Shown: in pieces, positions 2,349 through 57,809 of the stretch
Layout of the letters: the number at the start of each line of letters is the position of its first letter
How positions within the stretch are numbered: the stretch's first letter is position 1
Assembly: GCA_016191525.1 (NCBI GenBank)
Contig: JACPOK010000014.1
Location: 434,001 to 498,000 of the forward strand
Reading direction: 5' to 3'
Length of the DNA stretch: 64,000 nucleotides
From: Burkholderiales bacterium
Lineage (GTDB): Bacteria; Pseudomonadota; Gammaproteobacteria; Burkholderiales; Burkholderiaceae_C
Program-made: the position numbers and the translations under genes
Notes under the pieces: generated by a model
The model's database searches: none
Told to the model about the DNA's origin: nothing
What the model saw: the letters and a program-made list of their open reading frames with translations, nothing else

Positions 2349-3134
2349 ATGGAACTCCGCCAACAGGCCCTGACCGCCCTTTGCACTTGCGATCCAGAGG
2401 AAAAATTGGCTGCAACGCGCTCCAGTCTTGCACAGGCAGCTACACTTTTAATAGCAGACAAGGCGCCCGTGCCCAACGCTGCGCTGCCAGGCCGGCCTTG
2501 CAGGCCTGAGCTCATCCACCCCGCTCGCGTACCGCGCCGCTCCCCCTTCAAGCCCGAAGGCCTGGCCGCGCTGCTGCACGCCATCGCCCACATCGAGTTC
2601 AACGCCATCAACCTGGCCCTGGACGCGGCCTGGCGCTTTGACGGCATGCCGCGCGAGTTCCATCTGGACTGGCTTCACGTCGCCGCGGAAGAGGCCCATC
2701 ACTTCAGCCTGCTGCGCGAGCACCTTCAATCGCTGGGCCACGACTACGGCGACTTCCCCGGCCACGACAACCTGTGGTCGATGTGCGAGCGCACGGCGGA
2801 CGATGTGACGGCGCGCATGGCGCTGGTGCCGCGCACGCTGGAAGCACGCGGGCTGGACGCCTCGCCGCTGATCCAGGACAAGCTGCGCAAGGTCGGCACG
2901 CCCGCTGCACTGCGCGCGGTGGACATCCTGGACATCATCCTGCGCGACGAGATCGGCCACGTGGCCATCGGCAACCACTGGTACCGCTGGCTGTGCGCGC
3001 GGGAGCAGGTGGATCCCGTGGCGCACTACGCCACGCTGGTGGTTCGCCATGACGCGCCAAAACTGCACCCTCCTTTCAACATGGAAGCGCGCCGCCGCGC
3101 GGGCTTCGACGAGGCCGAATTGGGCCGGCTCTGA
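2349..3134 (+). CDS. DUF455 ferritin-like domain protein
   Basis: A 261-residue protein of the DUF455 family, predicted to adopt a ferritin-like four-helix bundle. Candidate di-metal ligands are seen as IEFNAINLALD, an EEAHHF motif and RDEIGHVAIG near the C-terminus. This family is widespread in Burkholderiales and its reaction is not established; some relatives resemble the tRNA hydroxylase MiaE. Codons around 16-37 consist of a copy of the dispersed ~62-bp element described separately, so residues PEEKLAAT to LLIADKA may be element-derived and lie outside the fold. Divergent from the carbonic anhydrase gene. Confidence 0.88.
   Translation: MELRQQALTALCTCDPEEKLAATRSSLAQAATLLIADKAPVPNAALPGRPCRPELIHPARVPRRSPFKPEGLAALLHAIAHIEFNAINLALDAAWRFDGMPREFHLDWLHVAAEEAHHFSLLREHLQSLGHDYGDFPGHDNLWSMCERTADDVTARMALVPRTLEARGLDASPLIQDKLRKVGTPAALRAVDILDIILRDEIGHVAIGNHWYRWLCAREQVDPVAHYATLVVRHDAPKLHPPFNMEARRRAGFDEAELGRL
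2395..2457 (+). repeat. Dispersed ~62-bp in-gene element, copy 1 (DUF455 gene)
   Basis: The right end carries the 17-nt core GCTAC-ACTTTTA-ATAGC (2439-2455) in otherwise GC-rich coding DNA. The left part (CAGAGGAAAAATTGG, then GCTGCAACGCGC) aligns with the copies in mutL, miaA, the permease gene and the ABC exporter gene. The distance from the left TTGG block to the core is 29 nt, as in copies 3 and 6. The copy is read in frame. Confidence 0.8.
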
Positions 3135-26265: not shown

Positions 26266-28098
26266 ATGAACGCCGTGCTCTCCCCCGCCCCCCGCCGCCC
26301 CATCCGCGAACTGCCCGACGAGCTGGTCAGCCAGATCGCCGCCGGCGAAGTGGTGGAGCGGCCCGCCTCGGTGGTGCGGGAGCTGGTGGACAACGCGCTG
26401 GACGCGGGCGCCGCACAGGTCACGGTGCGGCTTCTGGCCGGCGGCGTGCGGCTGATTTCGGTGGAAGACGATGGCGCGGGCATCGCGCGCGAAGAGCTTT
26501 CCATCGCGCTGCGCCGCCATGCCACCAGCAAGATCGCCTCGCTGGCCGACCTGGAGTCGGTGGCCACCATGGGCTTCCGGGGTGAAGCGCTGGCGGCCAT
26601 CAGCTCGGTCTCCGAACTCACCCTGCTGTCACGCCCCGCGGGCCAGGCCAGCGCCTTCGCGCTGGATGGCCGCACCGGCGAGCTGCGCCCCGCCGCGCGC
26701 GGCACCGGCACCACGGTGGAAGTGAAAGAGCTTTTCTACAGCACGCCGGCGCGCCGCAAGTTCCTGAAGAGCGACGCGACGGAGCTGGCGCATTGCGTCG
26801 AGGCCGTGCGCCGCCACGCGCTGGCCCGGCCCGACGCGGGCTTTGCCATCTGGCACGAGGGCAAGCTGGTGGAGCAGTGGCGCGCCGCCACGCGCGAGCA
26901 GCGGCTGGCCGACGTGCTGGGCAGCGAACTGATCGAACAGGGCGTGGCCGTGGACTACAGCGCCGGCCCCATCCGCATCACGGGCCGCGCCGGCATCCCC
27001 GACCTGTCGCGCTCGCGAGCCGACCAGCAGTTCTCGTACGTCAACGGCCGCTACGTGCGCGACAAGGTGGTCACCCACGCCGCGCGCAGCGCCTACGAAG
27101 ACGTGCTGCACGGCCACCGCCAGCCGGTCTATGCGCTGTACGTGGAGATCGACCCCGCGCGGGTGGACGTGAACGTGCATCCCACCAAGATCGAGGTGCG
27201 CTTTCGCGACAGCCGTGAAGTGCACCAGGCCGTGCGCCATGCGGTGGAGAACGCGCTGGCCGCTCCGCGCGCGGCGGCCGCGGGCGGCGCGCAGGCCCCG
27301 CTTTCCACCGAGCTTCCAGAGGCAAATCGGCCCGCAGAGCGCGCCAGCTGGGCGCAGCCAGCTATGAATTTTGTAGCAGAGGCAGGCAACCGCGTGTCGG
27401 ACCTGTCCGCGCTGTGGCAGCCTTCCAACAATGCCGCTCGCCCTGAGCTCAATCCCGTTCGGGCTGAGCCTGTCGAAGCCCCTTCGACAAGCTCAGGGCG
27501 AACGGAGCAAGTCTGGCCGCTGGGCCGCGCCATCGCGCAGCTGCAGGGCATCTACATCCTGGCCGAGAACCAGCAGGGGCTGGTGATCGTGGACATGCAC
27601 GCGGCGCATGAGCGCATCGTGTACGAGCGGCTCAAGCTGCAGATGGATAGCGCAAGCGCCATCAGCAGCCAGCCGCTGCTGATTCCCGCCACCTTCGCCG
27701 CCACGCCGCAGGAAGTGGCCACGGCCGAAGCGGCTGGCGAAACGCTGGCCGCGCTGGGCATGGAGATCACGCCCTTCTCGCCCAAGACCCTGGCCGTTCG
27801 CGCCGTGCCCACCAGCCTGGCGCACGGCGACGCGGTGGAGCTGGCGCGCAGCGTGCTGGCCGAACTGGCGCAGCACGACGCCAGCACCGTGATCCAGCGC
27901 GCCCAGAACGAGCTGCTGGGCACCATGGCCTGCCACGGCGCGGTGCGTGCCAACCGCAAGCTGACCCTCGAGGAGATGAACGCCCTCTTGCGCCAGATGG
28001 AAGAAACCGAGCGTTCCGACCAGTGCAACCATGGCCGGCCCACCTGGCGCCAGCTGACGGTGCGCGAGCTGGATGCGCTGTTCATGCGCGGGCGTTGA
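26266..28098 (+). CDS. mutL: DNA mismatch repair protein MutL
   Basis: A 610-residue GHKL ATPase that couples MutS recognition to strand excision. The N-terminal ATPase motifs are present (ELVDNALDAGA, DDGAGI, GFRGEAL). The C-terminal domain has DMHAAHERIVYE, close to the metal-binding endonuclease motif DQHA-x2-E-x4-E, plus ACHGAVRAN and CNHGRPTW, so this MutL is probably a nicking enzyme, as expected for a lineage without MutH. The linker (about residues 345-430) holds two different foreign repeat elements in frame, the ~62-bp element and a 51-bp palindrome. It is separated from amiC and miaA by accessory DNA. Confidence 0.95.
   Translation: MNAVLSPAPRRPIRELPDELVSQIAAGEVVERPASVVRELVDNALDAGAAQVTVRLLAGGVRLISVEDDGAGIAREELSIALRRHATSKIASLADLESVATMGFRGEALAAISSVSELTLLSRPAGQASAFALDGRTGELRPAARGTGTTVEVKELFYSTPARRKFLKSDATELAHCVEAVRRHALARPDAGFAIWHEGKLVEQWRAATREQRLADVLGSELIEQGVAVDYSAGPIRITGRAGIPDLSRSRADQQFSYVNGRYVRDKVVTHAARSAYEDVLHGHRQPVYALYVEIDPARVDVNVHPTKIEVRFRDSREVHQAVRHAVENALAAPRAAAAGGAQAPLSTELPEANRPAERASWAQPAMNFVAEAGNRVSDLSALWQPSNNAARPELNPVRAEPVEAPSTSSGRTEQVWPLGRAIAQLQGIYILAENQQGLVIVDMHAAHERIVYERLKLQMDSASAISSQPLLIPATFAATPQEVATAEAAGETLAALGMEITPFSPKTLAVRAVPTSLAHGDAVELARSVLAELAQHDASTVIQRAQNELLGTMACHGAVRANRKLTLEEMNALLRQMEETERSDQCNHGRPTWRQLTVRELDALFMRGR
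27317..27379 (+). repeat. Dispersed ~62-bp in-gene element, copy 2 (mutL linker)
   Basis: The core is GCTAT-GAATTTT-GTAGC at 27361-27377. The left block CAGAGGCAAATCGGCC and GCAGAGCGCGCC align with the permease-gene copy (CAGAGGCGAATTGGCC, GCAGGGCGC). It is read in frame as PEANRPAER and AMNFVAEAG within the non-conserved linker of MutL. Confidence 0.85.
27455..27505. repeat. 51-bp imperfect palindrome inserted in the mutL linker
   Basis: Two 24-nt arms (left CCGTTCGGGCTGAGCCTG..., right its complement with three mismatches) flank a 3-nt centre at 27479-27481. The type, with a GAGCCTGTCGAAG arm, is a REP-like palindrome I know from many Proteobacterial genomes. It is read in frame as NPVRAEPVEAPSTSSGRTE. 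A partial extra copy, CGCCCTGAGCT, lies just upstream at 27440-27450. Confidence 0.85.
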
Positions 28099-37500: not shown

Positions 37501-38458
37501 GGGCGTCGCGCCCCGCGTGATTGCCCTGGCCGGCCCCACGGCCTCCGGCAAGACCGCCGCCGCCATGGCCGTCGCGCGGCAGCAGCCCTGCGAAATCATC
37601 AGTGTCGATTCGGCGCTGGTCTACCGCGGCATGGACATAGGCACGGCCAAGCCCACCCTGGCGGAGCAAGCCGGCGTGCCGCACCACCTGATCGACATCC
37701 GCGATCCGCTGCAGGCCTACAGTGCCGCCGAATTCGCGGCCGATGCGCGCGGGCTCATCACCCAGATCAATGCGCGCGGCAAGCTGGCCTTGCTGGTGGG
37801 CGGCACCATGCTGTACTTCAAGGCGCTGTTCGAAGGCCTGAACGAGATGCCGCCCGCCGATGCGGGTGTGCGCGCCGAACTGGAAGCCGAAGCGGCCATC
37901 AATGGCTGGCCCGCGATGCATGCCGCGCTGGCCCGCGTGGACCCTGCCACCGCGGCCCGCCTGGGCCCCAACGATTCGCAGCGCATCCAGCGCGCGCTGG
38001 AGGTTTACCGGCTCACCGGCAAGCCCCTCTCGACCCTGCATGCTACTGAAAACATAGCTGCCCAGGCACAGCTGGTGCGCCCTGCAGCCGTTTTCTCCCT
38101 TGAACCGCAGGAACGAAGCTGGCTGCACAGCCGCATCGCCGAGCGCTTTGACGCGATGCTAGCCAGCGGCTTCCTGGAAGAAGTGAAGGCGCTGCGCGCG
38201 CGCGGCGACCTGCATGCCGACTTGCCCAGCACGCGCTGCGTGGGCTACCGCCAGGCGTGGGAACTGCTCGACCAGCAAGAGGCAAACGGCGGCGCGTTCG
38301 ACATGGCGCAGCTGCGCGACAAGGGCATCTTCGCCACCCGCCAGCTGGCCCGGCGCCAGCTCACCTGGCTGCGCGGCATGCAGCAGCGCGAAGTGATCGC
38401 CTGCGACGCGCCCGATGCCATCGCGCAATTGCTCGCCCGCGTGGAGCACATGGCATGA
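37478..38458 (+). CDS. miaA: tRNA dimethylallyltransferase
   Basis: A 326-residue enzyme that adds the dimethylallyl group to A37 of UNN-decoding tRNAs. Seen are the P-loop [34 protein letters not shown], the [13 protein letters not shown] segment and TRCVGYRQ. Part of the middle (residues about 188-208, [18 protein letters not shown]) is encoded by a reversed copy of the dispersed ~62-bp element. The gene is 9.4 kb downstream of mutL, its usual neighbour. The stop overlaps the ABC ATPase start (ATGA). Confidence 0.95.
38040..38101 (-). repeat. Dispersed ~62-bp in-gene element, copy 3 (miaA, reverse orientation)
   Basis: On the minus strand: AAGGGAGAAAACGGCTGC, AGGGCGCACCAGC, then the core GCTAT-GTTTTCA-GTAGC (plus-strand 38042-38058). 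It is the only copy lying opposite to its host gene. It still keeps the miaA frame open. Confidence 0.8.
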
Positions 38459-44609: not shown

Positions 44610-47153
44610 ATGATTTCGCTGCTTCGCACGTTTTCCGCCAGGGAAGCGCGCCACCACCCGTGGCGCACCGCGGCCGCGGTGCTGGCCGTGATGCTGGGCG
44701 TGGCGCTGGCGTTCTCCGTGCAGCTCATCAATGGCTCGGCGCTCAGCGAATTTTCCGGCGCGGTGCGCTCCGTCAACGGCCAGCCCGACCTGGAACTGCG
44801 CGCCGTGCACGGCAGCTTCGATGAAACGCTTTACGCCCGCATCGCCGCCGATCCGCAGGTGGCCCTGGCCAGCCCGGTGCTGGAGCTGGGCACGCTGGCG
44901 CTGGCGGCGGACGGCCAGCGCAAGCCGGTGCGCGTGCTGGGCCTGGACGCGCTGGTGGTGGCCGCGGTGGCGCCGGCCCTGATGCCGGTGCCCGCGCAGG
45001 GCATGGACCGGCTGGCGCTATTCGAGCCCGGCTCGGTGTTCCTCAACCCGGCCGCACGGGCGCTGGTGGGCAGCGGCGCGCTGCGCCTGCAAAGCGGCCT
45101 GGCCCTGCGCGAGGTGCGGGTGGCCGGCACGGTGGCCGCCGGCGGCCCGCCGCTGGTGGTGATGGACATCGCCGCGGCGCAGGAGCTGTTTGGCCGCGCG
45201 GGCGAGCTTTCGCGCATCGACCTGCGGCTGCGCGCGGGCACGGATGCGGCGTCCTTCGTGCGTTCTTTGAAGTTGCCCGGCGGCGTCACCGCCGCCGAGC
45301 CGGGCGACGCGGCGCAGCGGGTCAGCGCCCTGTCGCGCGCCTACCGCGTCAACCTCACGGTGCTGGCGCTGGTGGCCCTGTTCACCGGCGGCTTCCTGGT
45401 GTTCTCGGTGCTGGCGCTCAGCGTGGCGCGGCGCGCGCAGCAGTTCGCGCTGCTGGGCGTGCTGGGCCTGGCGCCGCGCGAGCGGCGCAACCTGGTGCTG
45501 GCCGAATCGGTGCTGCTGGGCACGCTGGGCAGCGCGCTGGGCATCGCCCTAGGCACGGCACTGGCGGCGCTGGGCCTGCGGCTGCTGGGCGGCGACCTGG
45601 GCGGCGGCTATTTCTCCGGCGTGGCGCCCGCGCTGCAATGGAGCACTGCCGCAGCCCTGGCCTATGGCACGCTGGGCGTGGCCGCCGCGGTGCTGGGCGG
45701 CTGGTGGCCGGCCCGCGCCGTGCAGCAACTGCCGCTGGCGCAAACGCTCAAGGGCCTGGGCACACGCCTGCCCACCGGCAAGGGCCACTGGCTCAGCCTG
45801 CTGCTGATTGCGGCGGGGGCGCTGTGCGCGCTGCTGCCGCCGGTGGGCGGCATTCCGCTGGCGGCCTATCTCTCGGTGGGCCTGCTGCTGGTGGGCGGCA
45901 TCACCGCCCTGCCCTGGGCGGTGGCCCTGCTCTACGACCGTGTGGCGCCGCTGGTGGCGCACCGCCTGCTGCCGCTACTGGCGGTGGAGCGCGCCCGCCG
46001 CGTGCGCGAGAGCGCGGCGGTGGCCGTGAGCGGCGTGGTCGCCTCGTTGAGCCTGGCCGTGGCACTCACGGTGATGGTGGCCAGCTTCCGCGATTCGGTG
46101 TCGCACTGGCTGGACGTGGTGCTGCCAGCGGACCTCTATGTGCGCACCGCGCTGGCGGCCAGCGCGGGCGATACGGCTTATTTCACACCCGAATTTGTGC
46201 AGGCCGTGTCGCAGCTGCCCGGCGTGCAGCGTATCGCCACCCAGCGCATCCGCCTGCTGTCGCTGGACCCCGCCTTGCCCGCCGTGGCGCTGGTGGCACG
46301 AAACGTCGGCGATGCGGCGAAGTCGCTGCCGCTGGTGGGCGAGCCGCTGCCGGTGCCCGCGGGCCAGGTGGGGTTGTATGTAAGCGAGGCCATGGTGGAC
46401 CTGTACGGCGCTCGGCCGGGCACGGTTTTCACCCGGTTTTCAGAGGCGAATTGGCCCGCAGGGCGCATGGATAGTGCTGTGCCAGCTACATTTTTCATAG
46501 CAGGCGTGTGGCGCGACTATGTCCGCCAGAGCGGCACCATCGCGATGGACCAGCGCGACTACGAGCGCCTCACGGGTGACCGCAAAGCCAACGACCTGCA
46601 GCTGTGGCTGGCGCCGGGCGCCGATGCGGCACAGGTGCAGCAGGCGGTGCGGGCGGCGGCCCAACGAGAGGCCGGAGCCGGCGCGTTGCTGGAATTCGCC
46701 TCGGCCCGCGAACTGCGCGCCACCTCGCTGCGCATCTTCGACCGCAGCTTTGCCGTCACCTACTGGCTGCAGGCGGTAGCCATAGCCATCGGCTTGTTCG
46801 GCGTGGCGGCGAGCTTCAGCGCGCAGGTGCTGGCGCGGCGCAAGGAGTTCGGGCTGCTGGCCCACCTGGGCCTGACGCGCCGGCAGGTGCTGGCCGTGGT
46901 GGCGGGCGAAGGCGCCGCCTGGACGGTGATCGGCGCACTGGCCGGGCTGGCACTGGGCCTGGCCGTGGCCGTGGTGCTGGTGCACGTGGTGAACCCGCAG
47001 AGCTTTCACTGGACCATGGACCTGCAGCTGCCCTGGCCGCGCCTGCTGGCGCTGTGCGCGGCGGTGGTCGCCTCCGGCACCTTCACCGCGTGGCTGGCCG
47101 GCCGCGCGGCGGCGGGCCGCGACGCGGTGCTGGCGGTGAAGGAGGATTGGTAG
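44610..47153 (+). CDS. ABC transporter permease with two FtsX-type domains
   Basis: An 847-residue permease (AttF/G- or YbbP-like) with about ten transmembrane segments: an N-terminal helix (residues 20-40), two clusters (about 240-450) and a C-terminal trio. The FtsX core repeats are seen (ALVALFTGGFLVFSVLALS and GLFGVAASFSAQVLARRKEFGLLAHLGLTRRQ), with large periplasmic domains. Its ATPase is probably the gene at 38.5 kb. A copy of the in-gene element encodes residues SEANWPAGRMDSAVPATFFIAG (about 611-632). The IlvD-like gene follows 9 bp later. Confidence 0.9.
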   Translation: MISLLRTFSAREARHHPWRTAAAVLAVMLGVALAFSVQLINGSALSEFSGAVRSVNGQPDLELRAVHGSFDETLYARIAADPQVALASPVLELGTLALAADGQRKPVRVLGLDALVVAAVAPALMPVPAQGMDRLALFEPGSVFLNPAARALVGSGALRLQSGLALREVRVAGTVAAGGPPLVVMDIAAAQELFGRAGELSRIDLRLRAGTDAASFVRSLKLPGGVTAAEPGDAAQRVSALSRAYRVNLTVLALVALFTGGFLVFSVLALSVARRAQQFALLGVLGLAPRERRNLVLAESVLLGTLGSALGIALGTALAALGLRLLGGDLGGGYFSGVAPALQWSTAAALAYGTLGVAAAVLGGWWPARAVQQLPLAQTLKGLGTRLPTGKGHWLSLLLIAAGALCALLPPVGGIPLAAYLSVGLLLVGGITALPWAVALLYDRVAPLVAHRLLPLLAVERARRVRESAAVAVSGVVASLSLAVALTVMVASFRDSVSHWLDVVLPADLYVRTALAASAGDTAYFTPEFVQAVSQLPGVQRIATQRIRLLSLDPALPAVALVARNVGDAAKSLPLVGEPLPVPAGQVGLYVSEAMVDLYGARPGTVFTRFSEANWPAGRMDSAVPATFFIAGVWRDYVRQSGTIAMDQRDYERLTGDRKANDLQLWLAPGADAAQVQQAVRAAAQREAGAGALLEFASARELRATSLRIFDRSFAVTYWLQAVAIAIGLFGVAASFSAQVLARRKEFGLLAHLGLTRRQVLAVVAGEGAAWTVIGALAGLALGLAVAVVLVHVVNPQSFHWTMDLQLPWPRLLALCAAVVASGTFTAWLAGRAAAGRDAVLAVKEDW
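46441..46503 (+). repeat. Dispersed ~62-bp in-gene element, copy 4 (permease gene)
   Basis: CAGAGGCGAATTGGCC and GCAGGGCGCATGG, then the core GCTAC-ATTTTTC-ATAGC (46485-46501). It is in frame and in the same orientation as the host gene. Confidence 0.85.
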
Positions 47154-54023: not shown

Positions 54024-55448
54024 TTACTTTTGGGCGGCCGTCACGGCGTCGGCACGCCAGCCTCCGCCGAGGGCGCGAATGAGGGCCACCTGCGTGTCCA
54101 GGGCGCGAGCGGCCAGGTCCACGCCCAGGCGGCGCTGGGCCAGCACCGCGGTTTCGGCGGTGAGCACGTTGAGGTAATTGCCCAGGCCCGCCTGGTAGCG
54201 CTGCAGCGCGATCTGGTAGGCCGATTCGGCGGCTTCCTGCGCCTGCCGCTGCTCGGCCTGCTGGCGCGTGATGGACTGGCCGGAGGCGAGCTGGTCGGCC
54301 ACCTCATGGATGGCGTCGATGACGGCGGCGTTATAGCTTTCCACCGCCGCGTCGTAGTCGGCCGTCTTGCCGCGCAGGTTGGCGCGCAGCCGGCCCGCTT
54401 CAAAGATCGGCAGGCGGATGGCCGGGCCCACGCCCCACTGCTGGCTGCCGCTGTCCAGCAGACGGCCCAGGCCGATGCTGGACAGGCCGGCGAAGGCCAC
54501 CAGGTTGATGTTGGGATAGAACTGCGCCTTGGCGTTCTTGATGTCGTAGCCGGCGGCTTCCACGCGCCAGCGCGCGGCGGCCACATCGGCCCGCTGGCCC
54601 AGCAGGTCGGCCGGAATGGCAGCCGGGCTTGCTACGGTTTTGATAGCCGCGATAGCAGGCGGGGTGCGGGCTACATCGGTATTTGGCTGCCCAACCAGGG
54701 CGGCGAGCGCGTTCTTCGCGAGCGCGGACTGCTCCTTCAGCGCCTCAATCTGCTGGCGTGCCTCGGGCAGGCCGCCTTCGCTCTGGCGCAGCTCCAGCCG
54801 CGTGTCCAGGCCGGCGTTGACGCGGTCGCGCACCAGGCGCAGCGATTCTTCGCGCTGGGCCAGCGTGCGGCCGGCCACCGCCAATTGGTCGTTGACGCGC
54901 GCCAGTTGCAGGTAGCTGCGCACCACATTGCTGGCCAGCAGGATGCGCGCGGCATCGGTGTCGGCCTGCGCGGCGCGCGCCGCGCCCAGCGCCGTGTCGA
55001 GCGCCGCGCGGTTCTTGCCGAAGAAGTCCAGTTCCCAGCTGGCGCCCAGCTGCAGCGCGCCGCTGTCCTTAATGGAACCGGCCAGCGGCGGCGGCACCGC
55101 GCCGTTCTGCGTGTAGCGCTGGCGAGTGATGTCCAGCGAGCCGTTGATTTGCGGCAGCAAGGCGGCGTCGGCCACTTCACTCACGGCTTGCGCGCGCGCC
55201 AGCCGCGCCTGCGCGATGCGCAGGTTGGGGTTGCCGGCCAGCGCCTGGTCCACCAGGCGGCTGAGCTGCTCGTCGCCGAAGCCGCGCCACCACTGGGCAT
55301 CGACCGCGGGCGAGGCACCGGCGGCCAGGTTGAGCGAGCCGGCGTCACGCAACTGCGCCTGGGTGTTGATGCCCGACATGTCGGCGCAGCCGGCCAGGGC
55401 CAGCGCCAGCAGCAGCGCCGTCGGGCGCAGGAAGTTCTTACTTGTCAT
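54024..55448 (-). CDS. NodT-family outer-membrane efflux lipoprotein
   Basis: A 474-residue outer-membrane factor of the TolC/OprM type. Lipobox ALALAGC at about residue 21, then two OEP repeats (PNLRIAQARLARAQA, RVNAGLDTRLELRQSEG, YPNINLVAFAG, YQAGLGNYLNVLTAE). It provides the exit duct for EmrAB. Part of the middle (AIAAIKTVA) is encoded by a divergent copy of the in-gene element. Its start overlaps the marR-like gene by 11 bp. Confidence 0.92.
   Translation of the reverse strand: MTSKNFLRPTALLLALALAGCADMSGINTQAQLRDAGSLNLAAGASPAVDAQWWRGFGDEQLSRLVDQALAGNPNLRIAQARLARAQAVSEVADAALLPQINGSLDITRQRYTQNGAVPPPLAGSIKDSGALQLGASWELDFFGKNRAALDTALGAARAAQADTDAARILLASNVVRSYLQLARVNDQLAVAGRTLAQREESLRLVRDRVNAGLDTRLELRQSEGGLPEARQQIEALKEQSALAKNALAALVGQPNTDVARTPPAIAAIKTVASPAAIPADLLGQRADVAAARWRVEAAGYDIKNAKAQFYPNINLVAFAGLSSIGLGRLLDSGSQQWGVGPAIRLPIFEAGRLRANLRGKTADYDAAVESYNAAVIDAIHEVADQLASGQSITRQQAEQRQAQEAAESAYQIALQRYQAGLGNYLNVLTAETAVLAQRRLGVDLAARALDTQVALIRALGGGWRADAVTAAQK
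54629..54689 (-). repeat. Dispersed in-gene element, copy 5 (nodT gene, divergent)
   Basis: In gene sense (minus strand): CAGCCAAATACCG block, then the core GCTAT-CAAAACC-GTAGC (plus coordinates 54631-54647). The core spacing is exact but the left part is only loosely similar to the other copies. It reads in the same frame as the others (A-I-K-T-V-A). Confidence 0.55.
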
Positions 55449-56018: not shown

Positions 56019-57809
56019 ATGGCATCCCTCCCCTCTTCCTCCACCGCGCCCGCCAAGGGCTCGCCCCGCTCCCTGTCGGGCCTGGTGCCCTTCCTCAAGC
56101 CCTACCGCGGCCGGATCACCCTCGCGGCGATCTTCCTGGTGCTGGCGGCCATGGCCACGCTGGTGTTTCCGCTGGCCTTGCGCGGGCTGATCGACGGCGG
56201 GCTTTCGACCGCCGACAAGGGCACGCAGGTGCTGGCGCTGCGCGAGCATTTCGTGGAGCTGTTCGGCGTGGCGGTGGCGCTGGGCTTTTTCTCGGCCGCG
56301 CGGTTTTACACGGTGAGCTGGCTGGGCGAGCGCGTCACGGCCGACCTGCGCAACGCGGTGTACGCGCATGTGCTGCGGCAAAGCCCCGAGTTCTTCGAAA
56401 CCGCGCAGACCGGCGAAGTGCTGTCGCGGCTGACCACCGACACCACGCTGGTGCAGACGGTGGTGGGCTCGTCGCTCAGCGTGGGGCTGCGCAACCTGGT
56501 GATGGGCACCGGCGCGATGGGCATGCTGGTGTGGACCAACCCCTACGTGATGACGCAGGTGCTGGGCATCCTGGTAGTGGTAGTGCTGCCCAGCGTATGG
56601 TTCGGCCGGCGGGTGCGCAAGCTTTCGCGCGCCAGCCAGGACCGCGTGGCCGATTCCAGCGCCATCGCGGCGGAGGTGCTGGGCGCCATCCCGGTGGTGC
56701 AGAGCTACACGGCCGAGGCGCGCGAGGCCGCGCGCTTCGATGCCTCCACCACCAATGCCTTCGACACCGCCGTGCGCCGCACCCGCGCCCGCGCGGTGCT
56801 GATCGTCTTCATCATCATCGCCACCAGCGCGGCGCTGCTTTGGGGCCTGTACCAGGGCACGCAGGCCGTGCTGGCGGGCAAGATCACCGCCGGCCACCTG
56901 GGGCAGACGGTGGTGTACGTGATCATGCTGGCGGGCTCGGTGGGCGTGCTCAGCGAGGTGTACGGCGACCTGCTGCGCGCCGCCGGCGCGACCGAGCGCC
57001 TGATGGAGCTGCTGGACTCGCGCTCGCCCGTGGTTTCACCGGAGAATCCGGCTGCAGCGCGCGCCACGCAAGCAGGGAGCGCTATCGAAATGGTAGCAGT
57101 GACGTTCAACTACCCGTCCCGCCCGGCCACGCCGGCGCTGCGCGAATTCAACCTGGAAGTGGCGCCGGGCGAAACGGTGGCGCTGGTCGGCCCCAGCGGC
57201 GCGGGCAAGAGCACGGTGTTCCAGCTGCTGCTGCGCTTTTACGATCCGGCGCAAGGCGACATCCGGCTGGACGGCGTGCCCACGCGCGAGCTGTCGCTGC
57301 ATGACCTGCGCCAGCGCATCGGCATCGTGCCGCAGGACGCGGTGGTGTTCTCCACCAGCGCGATGGAAAATATTCGCTACGGCAAGCCCGGGGCCAGCGA
57401 CGCCGAGGTGGTGGCCGCCGCCACGGCGGCGTTCGCGCACGACTTCCTCACTGCCCTGCCGGAAGGCTATGACACCTTTTTGGGCGAGCGGGGCGTGCGC
57501 CTGTCAGGCGGCCAGCGCCAGCGCATCGCGATCGCGCGAGCCATCCTGAAGAACCCGCCGCTGCTGCTGCTGGACGAAGCCACCAGCGCGCTGGACGCGG
57601 AGAGCGAGCGCATGGTGCAGGCGGCGCTGGAGTCGGCGATGCAGGGCCGCACAACGCTGGTGATCGCCCACCGCCTGGCCACCGTGCAGAAGGCCGACCG
57701 CATCATCGTGCTGGACCACGGCCGCATCGTGGAGCAAGGCACGCACGAGACGCTGATGGCGGTGAACGGTGTTTATGCGCGGCTGGCGGCGCTGCAGTTC
57801 ATGGACTGA
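56019..57809 (+). CDS. ABC exporter, fused membrane and ATPase domains (MsbA/LmrA type)
   Basis: A 596-residue half-transporter: six-helix exporter domain (about residues 30-320) and ATPase domain with Walker A GPSGAGKST, Q-loop VPQDAVVF, signature LSGGQRQR, Walker B LLLLDEATSALD and H-loop IAHRL. Likely exports lipids or drugs as a homodimer. It diverges from marR and may share its operator. No Shine-Dalgarno is seen; TACACT (56007-56012) ends six bases before the ATG, so a leaderless transcript is possible. An in-gene element copy encodes the linker before the ATPase domain. Confidence 0.92.
   Translation: MASLPSSSTAPAKGSPRSLSGLVPFLKPYRGRITLAAIFLVLAAMATLVFPLALRGLIDGGLSTADKGTQVLALREHFVELFGVAVALGFFSAARFYTVSWLGERVTADLRNAVYAHVLRQSPEFFETAQTGEVLSRLTTDTTLVQTVVGSSLSVGLRNLVMGTGAMGMLVWTNPYVMTQVLGILVVVVLPSVWFGRRVRKLSRASQDRVADSSAIAAEVLGAIPVVQSYTAEAREAARFDASTTNAFDTAVRRTRARAVLIVFIIIATSAALLWGLYQGTQAVLAGKITAGHLGQTVVYVIMLAGSVGVLSEVYGDLLRAAGATERLMELLDSRSPVVSPENPAAARATQAGSAIEMVAVTFNYPSRPATPALREFNLEVAPGETVALVGPSGAGKSTVFQLLLRFYDPAQGDIRLDGVPTRELSLHDLRQRIGIVPQDAVVFSTSAMENIRYGKPGASDAEVVAAATAAFAHDFLTALPEGYDTFLGERGVRLSGGQRQRIAIARAILKNPPLLLLDEATSALDAESERMVQAALESAMQGRTTLVIAHRLATVQKADRIIVLDHGRIVEQGTHETLMAVNGVYARLAALQFMD
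57038..57099 (+). repeat. Dispersed ~62-bp in-gene element, copy 6 (ABC exporter)
   Basis: CACCGGAGAATCCGGCTGCAG and GCGCGCGCCACGC, then the core GCTAT-CGAAATG-GTAGC (57081-57097). It is in frame and in sense with the host, encoding the linker between the membrane and ATPase domains (PENPAAARATQ, AIEMVAV). Confidence 0.8.

Follow-up and report, generated by a model that had tools for sequence, protein, structure and literature searches.

Why should one and the same sequence of about 60 bp recur inside six protein-coding genes of a single chromosomal segment? The question arises in a window of 64,000 nucleotides, the whole stretch of DNA analyzed here, from a Burkholderiales genome (G000, 5.0 Mb; contig JACPOK010000014.1, positions 434,001 to 498,000). 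An earlier note had reported in it six occurrences of a palindromic core, GCTAYN7RTAGC, and had read them as a mobile palindromic element that inserts into genes without breaking them.

A repeat with a palindromic core and dialects

The six cores lie where the earlier note had placed them (Table 1). In 100 dinucleotide shuffles of the window the pattern occurred 0.03 times on average and at most once, so the chance expectation is far below one, as had been supposed. The host genes were also correctly named, as judged by their Pfam matches: DUF455, MutL, MiaA (IPPT), FtsX permease, OEP (nodT) and ABC exporter. Gene contexts come from a home-made gene caller, which had begun the DUF455 gene downstream of the element; this copy was placed by hand. 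An earlier start, with the element inside the gene, is supported by the Pfam match, which begins at residue 13 of the open reading frame starting at 2349, and by homology with G199, a second element-rich genome of the source genus. Conserved blocks had been described upstream of the core in five copies. This is correct for four of them (2439, 27361, 46485 and 57081, all on the minus strand); the plus-strand copy at 38042 has them downstream, and that at 54631 is a weak plus-strand copy.

Table 1. Copies of the element in the window (positions of the window; scores in bits from nhmmer)
Host gene	Element	Strand	Core	Score (bits)	Remark
DUF455	2391..2458	-	2439-2455	56.3	
mutL	27314..27379	-	27361-27377	58.0	between N-terminal domains and C-terminal dimerisation domain
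miaA	38040..38105	+	38042-38058	58.5	
FtsX-type permease	46437..46503	-	46485-46501	38.3	
nodT/OEP	54629..54675	+	54631-54647	15.5	weak copy, E 0.0038
ABC exporter	57033..57099	-	57081-57097	37.6	between membrane and ATPase domains

We built an element profile from 24 seeds and searched 464 kb of the source genome with it (400 kb of contig C8 and the window). It returned 38 copies at E < 0.01, including all six of the window, which extrapolates to around 400 copies per genome; the bit scores of the seeds are flattered, since the profile was built from the sequence it then searched. The same profile found five copies at E < 0.01 in 180 kb of G199, and its best match in 220 kb of two element-poor genomes (G154 and G206) scored 10.4 bits. 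The exact core occurs 230 times in the source genome and the pattern read backwards 41 times. This reversed control is an unfair background because the string abounds across the family and, in element-poor genomes, often outnumbers the core by far. A better background is provided by the 58 element-poor genomes of the source genus, which have 1 to 32 cores each.

With copies aligned in one orientation, the element reads as the core, TGCCYACGCA, a variable stretch, GCGCNCTGCAGNC, a T-tract and CCTCTGAA. It is about 58-65 bp long, and its core has the form GCTAY-nn-WWW-nn-RTAGC, followed by a dialect-specific middle block and the T-tract. Of 44 extracted copies we selected 36, from seven genomes representing six genera, and left out eight; all were trimmed to 58 bp from the core. 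They align over 58 columns without any gap, i.e., the constant spacing reported for the window copies holds across the whole element. The GCTA and TAGC of the core are invariant in this alignment, and T18, C41, G46, C48, T52 and T53 are nearly so. The motif carries around 77-81 bits of information, an upper estimate because the copies had been selected with a profile. The middle block differs by genome or genus, which defines dialects. Further stretches yielded two copies in G035 and one in G099, and those taken from G039 and G009 contained none.

By eye, the rows of G020, G211, G085 and G003 have a middle block that forms an inverted repeat whose two arms change in concert; those of G000, G031 and G035 lack proper pairing there. 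A two-helix structure has 57 cells with double changes, against 27.7 in shuffles (0 of 500 shuffles reach this value), and all but one of these cells are in helix 2; the alignment has several rows per genome, so these statistics are not built on independent rows. Two of the five covariation measures are not above the shuffles (9 vs 8.0 double-change pairs, 19 vs 19.0 pair types), and helix 2 is paired in only 67% of the cells. As helix 2 breaks down in several genomes, we rejected an RNA hairpin as the unit of conservation. In 9 of the 36 copies, core positions 5 and 13 are unpaired. Because they are not strictly paired, we read the symmetry of the core as protein-DNA recognition rather than RNA structure. 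In contig C1 of G031 (54850-54933), two cores start 67 bp apart, possibly in a paired arrangement; their orientations are uncertain.

Distribution and placement of the copies

Our genome surveys counted the core only, not the full element. In the GTDB family f1, 38 of the 150 genomes (source genome included) have at least 100 cores and most others have fewer than 20 by our own count. Among the 226 genomes of the same class outside this family (229 were surveyed in the class), the maximum is 27. Two of the 60 genomes of the source genus are rich (230 and 165 cores) and the next highest has 32. The genus of G020 has five rich genomes out of seven (245-420 cores), the two poor ones having 2 and 3. 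In other words, cores are abundant only in f1, and rich and poor species coexist within one genus. Around the chromosome of G211, copies were found in 15 of 20 stretches, and three adjacent stretches at 3.87-4.47 Mb had none. Only 2 of the 33 matches in this genome fall in the five stretches (of 20) with GC below 0.64, a cut-off picked after seeing the table and applied to GC as a mere proxy for recent acquisition.

Two Comamonadaceae plasmid records (Diaphorobacter and Comamonas) match an idealised copy of the element. Among viral sequences, 82 stretches match the core plus TGCNNGCGC, and a phage contig with primase/helicase and ParB-like genes has four same-orientation profile matches within 2.5 kb (L212:3573-6049). 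An Escherichia coli plasmid carries an element-like sequence antisense inside a DUF1010 open reading frame, between dfrA12 and aadA2 (L293:657-947, E 0.003), and the Pfam DUF1010 match starts where the element is translated. Judging from this plasmid, part of the DUF1010 family may be translated element, and the dfrA12-aadA2 cassette may stem from an element-bearing bacterium.

Copies are placed tolerantly, near the 3' ends of genes and in tolerant coding sequence. Fewer lie inside genes than the coding fraction predicts (22 of 38 in G000 and 10 of 44 in G020). In G020, none of the 34 intergenic copies is in a divergent spacer (39 of the 188 spacers are of this type), and 15 are between convergent genes, which is an enrichment relative to the 25 convergent spacers among the 188. 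The avoidance of divergent spacers is weak in G000 (1 of 16 intergenic copies vs 43 of 149 spacers, P 0.07). Copies in tandem spacers are nearer the 3' end of the upstream gene in 11 of 13 cases in G000 and 14 of 19 in G020. Both strands are used, with 22 copies on the minus and 16 on the plus strand in G000, and 21 and 12 in G211. Relative to the gene, same-strand and opposite-strand copies number 5 and 8 (G000) or 11 and 8 (G020) in tandem spacers, and 9 and 13 inside the genes of G000.

All 15 exact in-gene cores of the source genome are read in phase 0, encoding A-[ITM]-x-x-[VI]-A; seven more in-gene copies lack an exact core. This phase is also favoured in six other genomes (18 of 23 in-gene cores, with G020 and G208 sharing sites). 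When half-sites alone were counted in plus-strand genes of G020, 9 of 262 GCTAY and 16 of 21 RTAGC were in the favoured phase. The two half-sites have opposite phase habits, and a pooled count of both (25 of 283) is given no weight here because it mixes them. Mean profile scores are lower in genes than between them (41.9 vs 55.1 bits in G000, 38.6 vs 45.2 in G020). This pattern of placement, phase and score is what one would obtain if a DNA-driven motif were filtered by the tolerance of the proteins.

Length and divergence at the element sites

An insertion of element length should add 22 residues to the host protein. We compared the six genes of the window with orthologues in G199, G154 and G206 (16 comparisons, as DUF455 was compared with G199 only), and the net length difference ranged from -3 to +8 residues, never reaching this value. 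Hence, the earlier note was right in describing a real repeat of about 60 bp with a palindromic core, in frame in many genes and with hundreds of copies in some relatives, but its proposal that a mobile element was inserted into these genes is not borne out. The net differences to G199, G154 and G206, in this order, are 0, 1 and 4 residues for miaA, 0, +8 and -2 for ftsX, and 2, 0 and 2 for nodT/OEP. The ftsX of G206 shows single gaps of up to 10 residues, offset by opposite gaps. For DUF455, the G199 orthologue, the sole one in the stretches compared, aligns ungapped across the element, and G199 has no match at the site. Solved MiaA proteins are 7 residues longer (3crm) or 4 shorter (2zm5) in the element region; a MiaA search of the genome contigs gave distant relatives only.

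The earlier note had named the same residues in the same place in orthologues of distant bacteria as telling against its reading, and this partly holds in mutL, where the core overlies W-x-QP. This motif is present in 22 of 22 orthologues, and its extended form W-x-QP-x-M-x-F in 12 of them. The linker of mutL varies in length, with 14-26 residues in the 22 orthologues and 23 in the source protein. In G199 this site holds a diverged copy (23.6 bits), and the other 21 orthologues have no clear match. In the ABC exporter, the same 23 residues stand at the element in 21 of 21 orthologues of the genus, residues inside the element (e.g., SP and GSA) are common to element-free orthologues, and a distant ABC transporter (8woi) differs in length by at most 2 at the site. 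G199 has a copy of 28.0 bits there and is, at the nucleotide level, alone in having a clear copy at this site and in mutL.

We also analyzed nine further proteins with in-gene elements from contig C8 of the source genome. In eight of them the element is inside the Pfam match, and the length of the match minus that of the profile, worked by hand, is +4, +13, +28, +3, -2, -6, +10 and -4 residues. Relative to a solved RlmJ, the protein with +28 (RlmJ) shows a gap of 11 residues at the element, and the one with +13, TlyA/FtsJ, has gaps of 4 and 5 residues, i.e., 9 extra around the element. None of the nine is compatible with the insertion of a full element length at its site. Since RlmJ, TlyA and ftsX (the latter vs G154) have 11, 9 and 8 extra residues around the element, length-variable loops are favoured as sites.

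How the element changes with time was assessed in one species pair only, G020 and G208, which are around 93% identical and have 13 G020 elements in aligned blocks. Twelve of these sites keep the element in G208, one weakly (15.7 bits). When positions were split at 0.9 bits, 52 of 452 high-information positions (0.115) and 90 of 317 low-information ones (0.284) had diverged, and the extreme information classes gave 0.100 vs 0.323. As neutral yardsticks, fourfold sites have diverged by 0.136 and intergenic DNA by 0.152. Motif positions are thus modestly below the neutral rate (P 0.014 vs 0.152) and the other positions well above it (P 2e-9). Divergence is also raised in the 20-bp edges of the elements (0.246, vs 0.109 in the flank). 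At low-information positions it is bimodal, with eight sites at 0.08-0.27 and five at 0.38-0.62. Four of these five retain the motif positions (0.08-0.18 changed), and in the fifth, 496255, the motif was lost in G208. From these alignments, we read the changed sites as elements that were probably replaced in place by other element sequence. Local hypermutation may still account for the raised divergence at some sites, although the two groups of sites are better explained by replacement in place.

To look for sources of the replacing sequence, we searched both versions of the most changed site, 479040, genome-wide. The matches listed included tens of non-orthologous copies. Among the best 40 candidates per genome, its own orthologue was absent in either direction and there was no near-identical copy; the best non-self matches were 86% over 50 bp and 79-81% over 62-70 bp for one version, and 82% over 65 bp and 90% over 41 bp for the other. 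The G020 element at 491708, in turn, matches a copy at a distance of 101 kb with 94.7% identity over 57 bp, but its G208 orthologue with only 0.77. In three genomes the top pair of copies is more alike than in column shuffles (P 0.005, 0.005 and 0.000 with 200 shuffles), the highest pair identity being 0.94 in G211. The spread of pairwise identities in G020 is 0.0637, vs at most 0.0597 in shuffles, with no excess in the first 12 copies. Copies share information at motif positions and little at the others.

Two elements 5.3 kb apart in contig C8 of G000 (177198-177259 and 182493-182558) share the variable middle stretch with 85% identity, the top pair of the genome sample; this similarity gives a hint of local copying. 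G020 also has a separate repeat of about 120 bp (contig C1, around 516760-516881; L154:16760-16881), with matches of 77-95% at 23 listed places in G208. This repeat is unlike the element and looks recently copied.

What may maintain the element

In our best explanation, the element could well be a lineage-specific motif resembling a DNA-uptake signal, kept by biased exchange and selection. Hundreds of permissive sites would hold it through a process acting on DNA, not through transposition. DNA with a good match would be preferentially taken up or recombined, so that matches would arise and persist in place at sites where the constraints on protein and regulation permit, and would decay once the specificity is lost. 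The recognizing machine would presumably be the uptake apparatus, and maintenance would result from drive rather than from a function at each site.

The comparison is with the DNA uptake sequences (DUS) of Neisseriaceae and the uptake signal sequences (USS) of Pasteurellaceae, which occur in many copies, in excess between genes though within genes as well, at permissive sites and in lineage dialects that share a constant inner core; many of their new sites are too divergent for simple point mutation (PMC2397512, PMC12616744). The DUS/USS dialects are described in PMC12616744, and the excessive divergence of many new DUS and their location in permissive regions in Treangen et al. 2008 (PMC2397512). 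We liken the element to these signals because it is over-represented, with hundreds of copies in dialects that keep one core, is lost sporadically, sits at permissive sites without net insertion, and has diverged strongly where sites changed. It differs from them by its length (about 58-65 bp vs 9-17), its palindromic core and its occurrence in another bacterial family. We do not file it as a DUS or USS because its length and information are unlike theirs and because ComEC does not discriminate: this gene is present in 22 of the 22 genomes searched, rich and poor, does not track the element, and was rejected as what sets them apart. To our knowledge, such a length is unprecedented for an uptake signal. 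Other observations also count against reading the element as one: its information is far above that of a motif of 9-17 bp, its high-information positions diverge only modestly less than neutral DNA, copies occur on phage contigs, some copies are related to each other, RTAGC half-sites are in the favoured phase on their own, some in-gene sites (ftsX, RlmJ and TlyA) show a local gain in length, and divergent spacers are only weakly avoided in G000.

In the main rival, which we regard as less likely, a complex that organises the chromosome or otherwise binds DNA genome-wide would recognise the element as its site, and each copy would be maintained through a small function of its own. Known sites of this kind are matS, parS and those of SlmA. 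The palindromic core, with its purine/pyrimidine freedom and A/T center, is of the kind contacted by dimeric proteins, the conserved blocks are about one helical turn apart with even spacing in the sampled genera, motif positions diverge less than others, and copies are on both strands. However, hundreds of copies with a very long specificity are unexpected for an essential architectural site, as are the sporadic presence in the genus and the wholesale change of non-motif positions at some sites. The G211 copies are moreover spread over the chromosome rather than confined to one macrodomain, even with the empty interval mentioned above.

A third explanation, which we deem improbable, is an old palindromic mobile family of the RPE or MITE kind, with gene conversion now exchanging sequence among its copies in place. 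It would account for the high information content, the open reading frame within genes, the element at 491708 being closer to its paralogue than to its orthologue, and the top pairs and identity spread above shuffles. It is at odds with the lack of an element-sized length difference at the six genes, with site 479040 having no near-identical copy among the best 40 candidates per genome, and with the little information shared by non-motif positions. Nor does Y1_Tnp (PF01797), which we take to be the family of RAYT transposases, track the element: it has no match in the rich G020, G208, G211 and G212, and has matches in the poor G154, G206, G168, G203, G205, G097, G209, G210 and G030. This distribution led us to reject a transposase-driven REP. 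We consider transposition disfavoured because of it, of the absence of element-sized insertions, and of the retention and replacement in place.

Known palindromic repeats resemble the element in part. Rickettsia palindromic elements (RPE) are palindromic repeats in frame within many unrelated genes, integrated and about 150 bp long (PMC10969869). The element shares the open frame in its host genes, but adds no length of its own relative to orthologues, and most copies of G020 are intergenic. The REP/GTAG and CGTC palindromes are likewise short, of high copy number and in some cases intragenic, according to a survey (PMC3733652) whose main text includes no Acidovorax, Delftia, Variovorax, Comamonas or Burkholderia. 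Unlike REP/RAYT systems, the element is a long spaced motif, not a single tagged stem-loop, and Y1_Tnp is absent from the four element-rich genomes.

An element acting at the RNA level, e.g., a transcription terminator or mRNA hairpin, is very improbable: an inverted repeat followed by a T-tract, the excess of double changes and the enrichment in convergent spacers of G020 speak for it, but the lack of a clear strand preference relative to the gene disfavours such a role, helix 2 fails in three genomes, two covariation measures are at shuffle level, and there is no Rfam match. Rfam gave no match at the gathering threshold in the window, and three further loci gave a single match at E 0.77, far under the cut-off.

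In the open-access literature (titles and abstract openings, top-ranked results for broad queries), we found no published description of the motif. A paper on transformation in Verminephrobacter suggests sequence-specific binding (PMC4212676); the words "motif" and "repeat" are absent from its text.

A motif this long, at hundreds of sites and without insertion, calls for an active process. It may, on a tentative view, be a third class of DNA signal for self-recognition, evolved independently of DUS and USS and far exceeding them in length, present in many genera of one beta-proteobacterial family, overwriting genes without insertion and reshaping proteins at hundreds of sites per genome. Were it an uptake signal, self-specific transformation would reach into a large environmental family, whose barriers to gene exchange would thereby be explained; a protein site would reveal a genome-wide complex not known before. 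As rich and poor species occur in the same genus, the recognition gene can be sought directly by comparing them. Under either reading, many proteins would carry residues dictated by the function of DNA, not by that of the protein.
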